Shown piece after piece: positions 2,869-27,689 of a stretch of 44,814 bases of DNA (positions within the stretch are counted from its first letter, which is position 1; each line of letters starts with the position of its first letter). Source of the DNA: Hyphomicrobiales bacterium. Lineage in GTDB: Bacteria > Pseudomonadota > Alphaproteobacteria > Rhizobiales > JAJFHB01. The notes under the pieces are model-generated. The model was given only the letters and a program-made list of their open reading frames with translations, ran no database searches and was not told the origin of the DNA. Position numbers and translations under genes: made by a program. The DNA lies in the NCBI GenBank assembly GCA_021775615.1, contig JAJFHL010000123.1:1-44814 (forward strand). Reading direction: 5' to 3'.

Positions 2869-3189
2869 GGCGGCCCTCCATGTCCGGTTCCCCAATCGAT
2901 CCGGATCGCTCGCCGCCAGCAATTGTTTTTCGCTGGTCGGCATCGTAACAGCTGCCAAGTTTTAATCTGATTTCTGGATGCGTTAAACAATATTCACGCA
3001 TTGTTGCCGCATATTCGTCCTTTTTCTCGCCAGTTGGAAACAAGAATAACAAATTAAAAGTTACGTCATTTGTAGCGCAACGACCGAAAATGTTGATATG
3101 TGAGGTCTGTTCGTCAATTTATACAGACGCGGAGATTCGCACGCCCGATTGACGTGGGGTTTCTCGAAGGGCAAAAGCCAGAGCCATAT
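2869..3189. promoter_or_regulatory. AT-rich leader and promoter region of paralog A
   Basis: There is no convincing gene in this stretch. Bases 2960-3090 are clearly more AT-rich than their surroundings and should hold the promoter of the outer-membrane gene read on the minus strand. The leader just before the start (GGGGAA-x-GGACA-TGGAGGG on the minus strand) is nearly the same as that of paralog B, so the duplication included the translation-initiation region. I could not assign a secure -35/-10 pair. Confidence 0.35.
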
Positions 3190-3190
3190 C

Positions 3191-3455
3191 TAGACCCTTT
3201 CTTCTTCTTACGGAATCACTTGACCGGGTTTTCACGTCTGCTGGCAAGGCACGATCCACGCCGTGGTCTGGCTGACCACAAGTGGGCCGTAACGCGGTCA
3301 GCAGGCGTGAAAATCCGGCCTTCGGTGGGCCAAATCGGCCCGTCGTCAGCGTTGTGGCGCTTGCCCGATACACTGCATCGAACTGCGCACCACGCCTGGC
3401 CAAGCGAACCGATTTGGCACCATCAAGCGTTTCCGTAAGAAGAAGAAAGGGTCTA
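3191..3455. mobile_element. MITE-like palindromic element 1 (CTAG target, TA duplication)
   Basis: Perfect 26-bp inverted repeats occupy 3190-3215 and 3431-3456, counting the flanking CTAG at each end. They start CTAGACCCTTTCTTCTTCTT on the left. The body between the TA dinucleotides is 261 bp and encodes nothing plausible. Nested inside are more inverted repeats: 3224-3243 with 3299-3318 (18 of 20 match), a perfect hairpin GTGGTC-TGGCT-GACCAC at 3263-3279, and GCCAAATCGG 3329-3338 with 3409-3418. Insertion at CTAG with duplication of TA is the known habit of IS630-type transposases, so this looks like a non-autonomous derivative of such an element. No transposase gene is in the window. Confidence 0.65.
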
Positions 3456-3456
3456 G

Positions 3457-3600
3457 AGGCACGGCCTCGATCCAGACGATCCGTACCCGGAAGGCTACAC
3501 CTTGTCGGATGTCTGGCTCAAAGCGATCTGATCACGCTGAATGGTATCGCTGTCGATGACGTATTTCGAGTTAGGCGTATCCACGTAACTCGATCGCGAG
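3457..3600. other. Gene-free spacer with a terminal hairpin
   Basis: This is the spacer between the MITE-like element and the stop codon of paralog B. Just at the 3' end of paralog B is an inverted repeat, GTAACTCG-ATCG-CGAGTTAC (3586-3605), overlapping its TAA stop. It has an 8-bp stem but no T-tract on the minus strand, so it may shape mRNA 3' ends without being a classical terminator. Nothing else is recognisable. Confidence 0.4.
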
Positions 3601-4611
3601 TTACAACCCGTCGAGCGGGATCGTAATGCGCGCGAACGGACCGAACTGGAAGCGGTGAGCGTTCTTCTCGCCGCGTCCGTTGCCGCCGCCCGGATCGAAC
3701 TTCACCCTCTGGTCGTACACGTTGAAGAACGCTTCGGCCTTGAAGCCGACGGTGAATTTCATGCCGCCCAGGCCTTCAGGCGTGAACGATATCCCCGCGG
3801 TCCCGCCCAGCGTCGGCACGACCCGGAAGCTGTGATCGTCGTCGGTAACGGAGAGACCGGCGAGCGCGCCAGTGCCCGTGGCCTCGACCCGGCGCTCACG
3901 GTCGCCAAACAGCAGCGAAGCGTCGCCAGAAAAGTCGAACTGCATGCTGCCGGACATCGGCACAACGGCATCGAAGCCCAGTTTCGGTCCGAAGCCGATA
4001 AAGGTCGAATTCCGCTCCTCGCTGAGCCCGCCGAGGGTGGGGCTTATGCGGCTGAAGTTGGTGTCGGTCTCGGCATCGAAATAGGCAAACCGGAAGCCCG
4101 CCTTGGCGGTGACGTCGATGCCGCCACCCATGCCGATATCGCGGCGCGCCTCAAAATCGACAATGACGTGTTTTTCCTCGTGGTCCACGCTTGCCGAAGA
4201 GAAGCCCGTATAGGTGGTGCCGCCCAAAATGTTGTATGGGGCGCTGGCAAACGGTCCGACTGTAGCCGTCGGCGTGCGTGTCTGGGAACTGTCCTCGTTG
4301 AACGATCCGCCGAACCGCGCAAAAATGCCGATGTCGTACGCGCTGTCCTGCCAGGGCGTAACGAAGCCCACTGCACCATGAAGCCCGTCATCGGGCTCGA
4401 TGTCGCGCACGATCTGCCCCGGAATTTCGGTCCAGCCCTGCTCATCGCCGGCATATATGTCGTAACCGAACTCGAGCATCAGCCAGGACGGTCTCTCGTG
4501 TCCATCCGCGAGGGCCGGCCCCTGACCAACCATGATGGCGAGTGCTACGGCCGAGACCCCCGTCAGAGCCCGTTTGCGCAAGGTCGTGCAGATCATAGGT
4601 GATGCAGCCAC
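3601..4611 (-). CDS. Outer-membrane beta-barrel protein, paralog B (Lpg1974-like)
   Basis: A 336-residue paralog of the product of 1891-2868. The two share the signal-peptide core RALTGVSAVALAIM, the mature start RPSWLMLEFGYDIYAGD, the EARRDIG block and almost the whole last 60 residues (FTPEGLGGMKFTVGF through PLDGL). They differ mostly in two loop regions (after GGSF, and around the AETDT block), as expected for surface-exposed loops of a barrel. The start is GTG 4609-4611, with GGAGGG six bases upstream. The predicted signal cleavage is after PALA. The role is likely a pore or structural outer-membrane protein; a substrate cannot be inferred. Duplication followed by loop divergence is the simplest explanation for the pair. 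Confidence 0.75.
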   Translation of the reverse strand: MAASPMICTTLRKRALTGVSAVALAIMVGQGPALADGHERPSWLMLEFGYDIYAGDEQGWTEIPGQIVRDIEPDDGLHGAVGFVTPWQDSAYDIGIFARFGGSFNEDSSQTRTPTATVGPFASAPYNILGGTTYTGFSSASVDHEEKHVIVDFEARRDIGMGGGIDVTAKAGFRFAYFDAETDTNFSRISPTLGGLSEERNSTFIGFGPKLGFDAVVPMSGSMQFDFSGDASLLFGDRERRVEATGTGALAGLSVTDDDHSFRVVPTLGGTAGISFTPEGLGGMKFTVGFKAEAFFNVYDQRVKFDPGGGNGRGEKNAHRFQFGPFARITIPLDGL

Positions 4612-25414: not shown

Positions 25415-26743
25415 TCAGATCGTCGGCGGCAATTCCTTTACGCCGTCGAGACGCATCCGGATGCGGTCGCGCGCACGCGCATAGCGCATTTGAAGCGCCT
25501 GCAGGGCGGCAAGGCCGGGCAGCGCCCGCTTGAAGGGCTCGACCGGCAGGCTGAGCCCGGCCGGGTCCTTTCCTTCAAGGAGATCGGCAAGCACCGAGCC
25601 TGCCGCGGTCGCCGTCGGCACGCCGCGCCCCGAATAGCCGAGGCAGGAATAGACGTTCTCATCGAGGCGGAAGAGCCGTGGAACCGTGCGGTACTGACCG
25701 TCGAGCAGGCCGTACCAGTAATGCTCCCATTTCACCTCTCCCAGTTGCGGGAAAACCCATTTGGTCTTGCGGGTCATGTAGTCGCGCGTTGCTTCCGGGT
25801 TATTGCCCATGCGTCCGGCAAAGAACACCGTGGTGATCAGGCGGTTGTGCTGCGTCCATTTGTAAAGCACCGGATCGCCATGGGTGTCGACGAGCGAGTG
25901 GTCGCCTTTCAGCACCTCGTCACGGAATTTCGGGTCGAGCGGGCCCGTCGCCAGCCCGGCCACCGGCGTCAGGTCGAACGCCGTATTGAGCTTCGGCCAC
26001 GGCGGGCCGATGGTATAGGCGCCGGTCGCCAGCAGCACCTTGTCGGCAAGCACGCTGCCTTTCGATGTGCGGACGCGCCAGCGTGAGCCATCGCGCTCGA
26101 CACCTGTGACCGGGCTTTCGGTAAAGACCTTTGCGCCTCGTGACAGGGCGGCCCGCGCCAGGCCCCGTGCGTAGCCGAGCGGGTTCAGATGCCCGGCGCC
26201 TTCCATCAGCCAGCCGCCGTGGTAGCGCTCCGATCCGCTCAGGTCGCGGGCCTCGTCGGAGGTCAGCATGTGGCCGCGCAGGCCGTGCGCCTCGTAGAGT
26301 TCTTTTTGTGCCCGCAGGCCCTCAAGATGACGCGGGCTTGCCGCCGGCCGCAAGATCCCGTTGCGCACCGCCTCACACTTGATCTGGTACTGCTCGATGA
26401 TCGAGAACACGTGGTCCGCGGCCTGGGTCTGCATGCGGATGATCCGCTCGGCATAGTCGTCGCCGTACATCTTCTTGATCTTCGCATACGGCCAGAAGTG
26501 AAACGTCGGCGTGCAATGGCCGAGATTGCGGCCCGAGCCGCCAAAGCCCACCTGCCGTGCCTCGACGACGACCGGTTCATGGCCGCGCTCGGCAAGCCGC
26601 AGGGCGGTAACGAGGCCGGTATACCCACCGCCGACGATGGCGATGTCCGATTGCAGGTCTTCTTCGAGCGGCCGCGTCGCTGGCGCCTCTACGGCAGTCG
26701 CGTGCCAGACGCAGTCATCATCGAGTTCGGTGATCTGTTTCAT
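25415..26743 (-). CDS. FAD-dependent amine oxidoreductase (PuuB/OrdL-like)
   Basis: A 442-residue DAO-fold flavoprotein. The FAD motif is AIVGGGYTGLVTALRLAERG (about residues 35-54), followed by ARQVGFGGSGRNLGH, which places the FAD-contact GRN motif typical of gamma-glutamylputrescine oxidase relatives. The C-terminal part has YSCLGYSGRGVPTATAAG for FAD binding. These enzymes oxidise secondary or gamma-glutamyl amines to aldehydes with oxygen as acceptor. No gamma-glutamylputrescine synthetase is nearby, although a stand-alone amidotransferase lies 9 kb away. The ATG at 26743 is used because the conserved N-terminal WHATA block begins close to it; a longer ORF to 26836 is possible. It converges with the enolase-type gene. 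Confidence 0.83.
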   Translation of the reverse strand: MKQITELDDDCVWHATAVEAPATRPLEEDLQSDIAIVGGGYTGLVTALRLAERGHEPVVVEARQVGFGGSGRNLGHCTPTFHFWPYAKIKKMYGDDYAERIIRMQTQAADHVFSIIEQYQIKCEAVRNGILRPAASPRHLEGLRAQKELYEAHGLRGHMLTSDEARDLSGSERYHGGWLMEGAGHLNPLGYARGLARAALSRGAKVFTESPVTGVERDGSRWRVRTSKGSVLADKVLLATGAYTIGPPWPKLNTAFDLTPVAGLATGPLDPKFRDEVLKGDHSLVDTHGDPVLYKWTQHNRLITTVFFAGRMGNNPEATRDYMTRKTKWVFPQLGEVKWEHYWYGLLDGQYRTVPRLFRLDENVYSCLGYSGRGVPTATAAGSVLADLLEGKDPAGLSLPVEPFKRALPGLAALQALQMRYARARDRIRMRLDGVKELPPTI

Positions 26744-26890
26744 CTGGTGCCGGCCCGCCCGTTGGACTTCCTTGCGCGCCGCGAATGCGACGCACATCAG
26801 CCTCACAAGCCGTAACGGCAATGTCAACCAGATCACGATCGACCTGGGTGGGCCCGTCTAAGTCGATAAAACGTGATCGTTTCCAATATT
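26744..26890. other. Upstream region of the PuuB-like gene
   Basis: The stretch before the repeat elements has no plausible gene beyond the optional N-terminal extension of the PuuB-like ORF (to 26836). I see no secure promoter or operator; a motif search across homologues would be needed. Confidence 0.3.
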
Positions 26891-26944
26891 CTGGAGCGGG
26901 ATCGGACGGAACACCCGTATCCACTTTTCCTGATCCCGCTCTAG
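26891..26944. repeat. Rhizobial-type intergenic palindrome (RIME-like)
   Basis: The arms 26891-26903 (CTGGAGCGGGATC) and 26932-26944 (GATCCCGCTCTAG) match at 12 of 13 positions. They flank a short centre containing ATCCACTTTTCC. This AGAGCGGGATC/GGAAAAGTGGAT pattern is the one I know from dispersed intergenic palindromes of Rhizobium-group genomes. Its right end supplies the CTAG at which MITE-like element 2 is inserted. Confidence 0.65.
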
Positions 26945-27209
26945 GTCATGAACTCATAAATGGCACGCATTCTGCGCTGACTGATTTGCGTTGCGAGCAG
27001 GCGCAAAGGTGCCCGAAACCTTCCGGTTTTCAAACCTTTGCAACGCCCGCGCGGCGCACATCCGACGCGCCCGCAGGGTTAGGCCAGGAGGGCCCGCCTG
27101 CAGGCAAACAATGCTCGATACGGCGCAAAGCCTGATCTTGCGCTTGTTTTCCAGCATTCGAACCCTCCTGACCAAACAGAATGTGCGCCATTTATGAGTC
27201 CATGACCTA
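26942..27209. mobile_element. MITE-like element 2 with 31-bp inverted repeats at CTAG
   Basis: Terminal inverted repeats lie at 26944-26974 and 27177-27207 and match at 28 of 31 positions; the left one starts GGTCATGAACTCATAAATGG. The 264-bp body is flanked by TA (26942-26943, 27208-27209) inside CTAG on both sides. An inner hairpin, GCAAAGGT (27003-27010) with ACCTTTGC (27034-27041), is present and no protein is encoded. Terminal sequence differs completely from element 1, so it derives from a different family. The right-hand CTAG overlaps the mmcB stop codon (read as TAG on the minus strand). The left end lies in the rhizobial palindrome. Confidence 0.7.
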
Positions 27210-27689
27210 GCCAAGCCCCGCCTCAGGGTCGTTCATGCCGTGCAGCCGCAGCGCACCGGCGCGGCCGAAGCGCAGGATCACCGCCTTGCGCCGCGCCGCG
27301 CTGAGCCGCTGTTCTGCGACGTCGCGGATCACTTCGGCGCCGTACCGGTCGGCCACGATCAGCCCGGTTTCAGCCGGAATAATCTCCTGCGGCACGTCAT
27401 GGGGTATGGCGAAGAACAGCCGGTCGCAGTGCTCCCAGTAGTCGGGCCATTTGTGATCGGCGCGAAAGTCTTCGACGCTTGACTTGATCTCCACGATCCA
27501 GATGTCGCCGGTCCGGTTGACGGCGACGACATCGGCGCGCCGGCCGGTGCTCAGCGGCAGTTCGGTCAGGGTGGCAAAGCCCATTTCGAGAAACAGGCGT
27601 CCGACGCCGCGCTGCACTTCCGCCGCCCGGAGCGACTGGCGCCCGTCGGGAATGACCAGATCGCGGTCTTCTGGAAGATGCGAATCCAT
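27207..27689 (-). CDS. mmcB: MmcB family DNA repair protein
   Basis: A 160-residue protein matching the MmcB/PF06319 pattern: GRRADVVAVNRTGDIWIVEIKSSVEDFRADHKWPDYWEHCD. The acidic-lysine set D53, E67 and K69 fits a PD-(D/E)xK nuclease-like core. MmcB was described in Caulobacter as an SOS-associated protein needed for resistance to mitomycin C damage. The length is normal for the family. Its stop codon TAG lies at the right CTAG of MITE-like element 2, so the element landed exactly at the end of the gene without changing the coding sequence. No LexA box could be confirmed upstream. Confidence 0.88.
   Translation of the reverse strand: MDSHLPEDRDLVIPDGRQSLRAAEVQRGVGRLFLEMGFATLTELPLSTGRRADVVAVNRTGDIWIVEIKSSVEDFRADHKWPDYWEHCDRLFFAIPHDVPQEIIPAETGLIVADRYGAEVIRDVAEQRLSAARRKAVILRFGRAGALRLHGMNDPEAGLG

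Follow-up and report, generated by a model that had tools for sequence, protein, structure and literature searches.

IS711 of Brucella, an 842-bp insertion sequence with 20-bp ends and two overlapping frames with a -1 frameshift, duplicates the TA of YTAR, and Bru-RS palindromes are reportedly its preferred targets (PMC2266754, PMC3163539). The IS427 group of the IS5 family, which includes ISPaes1 and IS1248 of Paracoccus, comprises elements of 832-865 bp that have 13-21 bp ends, mostly duplicate 2 bp and carry a frameshift motif along with two overlapping ORFs (PMC3281130). On a smaller scale, QMITE2 of Coxiella and other bacterial MITEs are short, carry terminal inverted repeats (TIRs), form a stable stem-loop and constitute recombination hotspots (PMC10969869). 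The element described here lies within a 44,814-nucleotide stretch of DNA (the window) and has in common with QMITE2 its short length, TIRs, stable stem-loop and apparent role as a recombination hotspot, but it is flanked by duplicated TA rather than by duplications of 7-9 bp. Like IS711, it uses YTAR and the ends of palindromic repeats, although IS711 is autonomous whereas the MITE is 264 bp long and non-coding, and its palindromes belong to a RIME-like repeat instead of Bru-RS. RIME is a Rhizobium-specific intergenic mosaic element; the left neighbor of the MITE, a two-palindrome intergenic repeat apparently of rhizobial type, is here called RIME-like. At this locus the RIME-like repeat is the target and the MITE is the mobile unit.

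The initial annotation placed a multicopy, MITE-like element with inverted repeats at the stop codon of mmcB, and our analysis bears this out. The features of the locus are as follows.

26944-27207, no strand assigned: the MITE proper, GG...CC, 264 bp and non-autonomous (from the sequence, copies and target analysis).
26942-26943, no strand assigned: left copy of the duplicated TA (from the sequence and asymmetric CTAA and TTAG targets elsewhere).
27208-27209, no strand assigned: right copy of the duplicated TA (on the same basis as the left copy).
26944-26974, plus strand: left terminal inverted repeat, the outer stem of the fold (28/31 match; covariation of helix 1 across families).
27177-27207, minus strand: right terminal inverted repeat (28/31 match to the left end; covariation).
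26974-27070, plus strand: arm 1 (helices 2-4) of the conserved fold (compensatory changes in 28 of 36 pairs).
27078-27177, plus strand: arm 2 (helices 6-7) of the conserved fold, the best conserved stretch (compensatory changes in 15 of 35 pairs).
About 26830-26944, plus strand: RIME-like two-palindrome repeat with CTAG at its end (genome copies aligned with their flanks).
27207-27689, minus strand: mmcB-like gene (PF06319, E = 2.8e-62).
25415-26836, minus strand: DAO-family FAD oxidoreductase, the left neighbor of the MITE (PF01266).

With the outer CTA included, the inverted repeats (26941-26974 and 27177-27210) are complementary at 31 of 34 positions. CTAG flanks the MITE on both sides (26941-26944 and 27207-27210), and the right-hand CTAG does contain the minus-strand TAG stop of mmcB (27207-27209), which is made up of the duplicated TA and the terminal base of the MITE. 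The palindrome CTGGAGCGGGATC / GATCCCGCTCTAG (26891-26944) finishes at the left CTAG, as had been claimed, but it is not a complete unit: it forms only the right half of the longer two-palindrome repeat. A reading of that repeat as a TA-flanked element starting at 26858 was rejected, as its copies show the repeat extending upstream. It is also literally true that excision restores CTAG, the gene and the palindrome; however, since CTAG-like letters stand at both ends of every copy, the same would hold for any pair of repeat-joined junctions, and the restoration is no proof that palindrome and mmcB once adjoined. The hairpin formed by the whole MITE is far beyond chance (z = -11.3). The longest ORF lying wholly or almost wholly within the element has 86 amino acids, and the frames of small ORFs are disrupted by single-base indels among copies. 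The element is thus short and non-coding with terminal inverted repeats, and the many copies, target duplication and empty sites described below complete the characteristics of a MITE.

Across the 6.26-Mb genome (392 contigs) we located 47 TIR sites, corresponding to about 30 elements, many of them cut at contig ends; both flanks were assignable in 14 copies. The proposed target rule holds as to its CTAG type, but not strictly. Copies on contigs C36, C318, C205, C364 and C304 sit in CTAA and one on C267 sits in TTAG, showing that the duplication is confined to TA and that the element targets YTAR. Empty sites in related genomes were found for other copies, three of them orthologous: the flanks of the C304 copy are contiguous in relative G002, those of copy C367b are contiguous in relative G001, and the G001 locus corresponding to copy C367a is without both RIME and MITE. 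G001 in turn has a copy at the TAG stop of a histidine-kinase-like gene adjoining the actR-like gene, where this genome has none. The suggestion that insertion at repeat ends recurs is borne out by 5 copies at RIME ends and 4 junctions at the ends of element 1. This second element (window 3189-3457) is bounded by CTAG and has inverted repeats, but its ends have only CTAG in common with those of the MITE, and two unrelated families with one target rule do coexist in this genome.

We also observed several arrangements around these copies. Element 1 is joined end to end with the MITE on C240, and on C205 the order is element 1, RIME, MITE. Flanking element 1 in the window are diverged direct copies of about 1 kb (1885-2861 and 3595-4604; 75-84%), apparently a duplicated gene. 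Solo terminal repeats of about 20-22 bp, GGYCATGGACTCATAAATGGCC, occur in genome G000 at C54:19757 (L149), C62:4860 (L148) and C386:566 (L131), with YTAR-like letters around them and no interior; at the C54 site another CTAG element comes next. These may be footprints or mini-insertions.

In 400 kb of the genome there are 111 CTAGs, where a trinucleotide (Markov) model predicts 303 and base composition 1401, a 13-fold deficit relative to composition. By a simple ORF rule (at least 100 codons, no curated annotation), 43 of 103 usable CTAG sites (42%) are ORF stops; of the 14 copies, 9 touch such a stop, which is not significantly more (p = 0.15). Special targeting of stop codons was accordingly rejected as unnecessary. 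The copies lie at stops because CTAG is scarce in coding DNA, not from a preference for stops, and their position needs no cause beyond this scarcity. When copies beside CTAG-ended palindromes were counted, as the initial annotation had proposed, 5 of 14 copies touched RIME ends, compared with 3 of 103 CTAGs in the background (p = 0.0005, a post hoc figure; binomial p = 0.005 over about 30 elements), and the MITE appears to prefer them. With up to 3 mismatches allowed, the genome contains 135 right ends of the RIME-like repeat. Enrichment at element 1 ends was rejected, the 4 junctions being comparable to 13 of 103 background CTAGs.

IS5-family elements about 840 bp long have ends similar to those of the MITE, GGTCATGRACTCATAAATGG. 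An intact-looking IS of this kind lies in the same genome (C106:1-843), bounded by CTAG on either side; it has two overlapping frames and matches to NF033580 (E = 7e-40 and 4e-46), PF13340 and PF01609. It is similar to the IS427 group in size and in its two overlapping ORFs, and its layout is that described for IS711; the 2-bp duplication (TA) of the MITE is likewise that of the IS427 group. Full-length relatives occur in Methylocella, Aminobacter and Roseibium plasmids, and all of these ISs, that of C106 and one in genome G107 included, have TAGG...CCTA ends; those of Methylocella and Aminobacter carry an IS5 family annotation. The MITE thus shows both TA duplication in YTAR and a TIR in common with an IS5-family element, the latter by partial similarity only: its TIR matches the left end of an IS in genome G107 at 19 of 20 positions and that of the C106 IS at 15-16 of 20. 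No IS with the exact MITE ends, of the IS427 group or otherwise, was found in this genome, where the C106 IS is the only intact-looking one; given its imperfect ends, the true transposase partner may be missing or extinct. A scan of 84,980 genomes with the exact TIR for an autonomous partner returned only other MITEs or single ends, and neither a plasmid search with the MITE nor a literature search by TIR and core letters gave a match. From the termini, we infer that the MITE is probably mobilized in trans by IS5-family, IS427-type transposases. In marine Rhodospirillales and in unclassified or other proteobacterial MAGs (L212-L228), we found MITEs (about 170-275 bp) that combine these ends with a different interior, and ends and interiors have thus been swapped between families. 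Loci of genome G005 (e.g., C367:10052-10214) hold another such combination, a short MITE, about 160 bp long, whose ends are GGTCATGAACTCATAAACAG.

When 18 elements were aligned and folded with RNAalifold, the result was a fold of three arms and 100 pairs in which 95.7% of cells are paired. Sixty of the 100 pairs are changed on both sides, where shuffles gave 30.1 such pairs and slid controls no more than 20, and these covarying base pairs, of the kind that mark a structured RNA, occur in the interior arms as well as the termini. Homologues in other families have a constant length (263-268 bp) and YTAR-type flanks, and their ends drift to forms such as GGGTCAGGACCCATTAAT that are complementary in every case. 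Of 397 genomes from the order, 35 contained arm 2 according to a covariance model (R1), with a patchy spread over about 20 families. Conservation of the three-armed fold over about 20 bacterial families is unusual for a MITE, and we know of no claim that a bacterial MITE keeps a covarying fold across many families while its ends drift. Interior DNA identity to other families is about 75-87%, compared with 69-72% for mmcB to genera of its own family; this excess suggests transfer or constraint. As a guide to RNA or DNA, G-U was compared with A-C: there are 80 versus 27 cells, yet by pairs the counts are 33 and 23 (p = 0.23), and it was on this strand that the fold was predicted. Rfam returned no match over its gathering score, only a sub-threshold one of 17.5 bits (cut-off 38), and known RNA family and tRNA identities were rejected. 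At L075, L076 and L084 (genomes G043 and G082), only the hairpin of MITE positions 59-106 (CAAAGGTGC..GGTTTTC..CCTTTGC) is shared, within elements that have other ends, and this hairpin may be a separate module.

Gene order in relatives bears on how the MITE came to stand between its present neighbors. In relatives G001, G003, G004 and G012, mmcB runs directly into a conserved response regulator gene (regA/actR-like), and the predicted empty site, with the palindrome joined to mmcB by one CTAG, was not found. Here the actR-like gene lies on C240, a contig that starts with half a MITE copy, followed by element 1 and then the regulator. In G001, a relative of the same genus, the DAO oxidase lies next to a gene for an AraC-type regulator (PF12833, PF01965), which in this genome is on C36, with its TAG stop at another MITE copy. 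Both adjacencies are absent and their partners stand at other copies; therefore, the ancestral adjacencies were broken exactly at copies, as judged from draft assemblies and a single same-genus relative that is 61% complete (G001). The element does lie between palindrome and mmcB, as first described, but a single insertion between them is improbable, and recombined copies are the probable source.

From this broken synteny, we lean toward a real recombination between MITE copies as the origin of the DAO-RIME-MITE-mmcB junction. The same observation, that both flanks have other ancestral partners, would also be expected if the repeat had led the assembler to link two separate loci by mistake. 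At MITE copies the overlap between contig ends is exactly 141 nt, which indicates assembly at k = 141 and an assembler unable to resolve many of the copies, and at k = 99 a 128-nt stretch of this copy is ambiguous. However, this copy is unlike all others: it has at most 113 nt in common with the other fetched copies and no common 119-mer or 141-mer, so that its path is unique at k = 141, and we regard a chimera as unlikely. A plainer history still, in which one MITE entered a CTAG formed by the RIME end and the mmcB stop and nothing recombined afterward, would explain why the rejoined flanks keep a single CTAG, the gene and the palindrome, and it accords with the repeated use of RIME ends and with the AraC-type gene, where a RIME end coinciding with a TAG stop at a copy fits equally. 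Against it stand the actR-like gene, which follows mmcB in the four relatives but here lies beside another copy on a different contig, and the AraC-type gene, which is next to DAO in G001 but here lies elsewhere, likewise at a copy; together they make simple insertion improbable.

The nature of the element itself also admits other readings. IS630 elements duplicate TA and prefer CTAG, and a MITE derived from IS630/Tc1-mariner would fit the TA duplication and CTAG target just as well. Yet the sole DDE_3 (PF13358) match in the genome (C380:15382-15792) was not linked to the MITE ends, and all ISs found with such ends belong to the IS5 family; with no DDE_3 transposase found to bear MITE ends in this genome, we rejected this derivation, which has very little probability left. 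The covariation, too, has a rival explanation. Near-palindromes are homogenized by template-switch correction, from which compensatory changes can arise, and the termini must match for the transposase regardless of any selection on the fold. Correction would tend to remove bulges, though, whereas interior loops and bulges persist across families, the length is constant at 263-268 bp and, in arm 2, conservation is among the highest at unpaired and loop positions; template switching as the whole cause seems to us doubtful. Selection on the fold itself, as RNA or as extruded DNA, is a possibility that we put forward tentatively: the element would then be a structured nucleic acid that is mobile and passes between families, with ends that change in step, perhaps to suit the resident IS5/IS427 transposase.

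We hold with good confidence the core of an account in which an IS5/IS427-type MITE, a YTAR target and the scarcity of CTAG explain the position of the element. A transposase would recognize GGTCAT-type ends and insert the element at YTAR with duplication of TA; such insertion and duplication are seen directly in the copies and empty sites. The termini restore TAG/CTA on both sides, and the sequence shows that insertion into a stop, whether TAG or TAA, still leaves a stop. With CTAG depleted except at stops and repeat ends, a CTAG-preferring element would mostly spare genes, and gene sparing through this depletion is statistically evident. Two copies, one between RIME and the AraC-type gene and the other between mmcB and the actR-like gene, would then have recombined in their near-identical interiors, joining DAO-RIME to mmcB. 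Over about 20 families the interior is kept, as the covariation shows, as a three-armed fold of RNA or DNA; we would guess that it serves either the element's own life or that of a transcript into which the element has inserted.

These results describe an element family that appears not to have been described before; its interior fold is conserved in about 20 families of an order, and its copies are probable breakpoints of gene-order change. They offer a testable, quantitative reason for gene sparing by some transposable elements, namely, that coding DNA has been cleared of the target word, which persists at stops and repeat ends. The conserved interior fold, moreover, makes the old question of MITE interior function testable.
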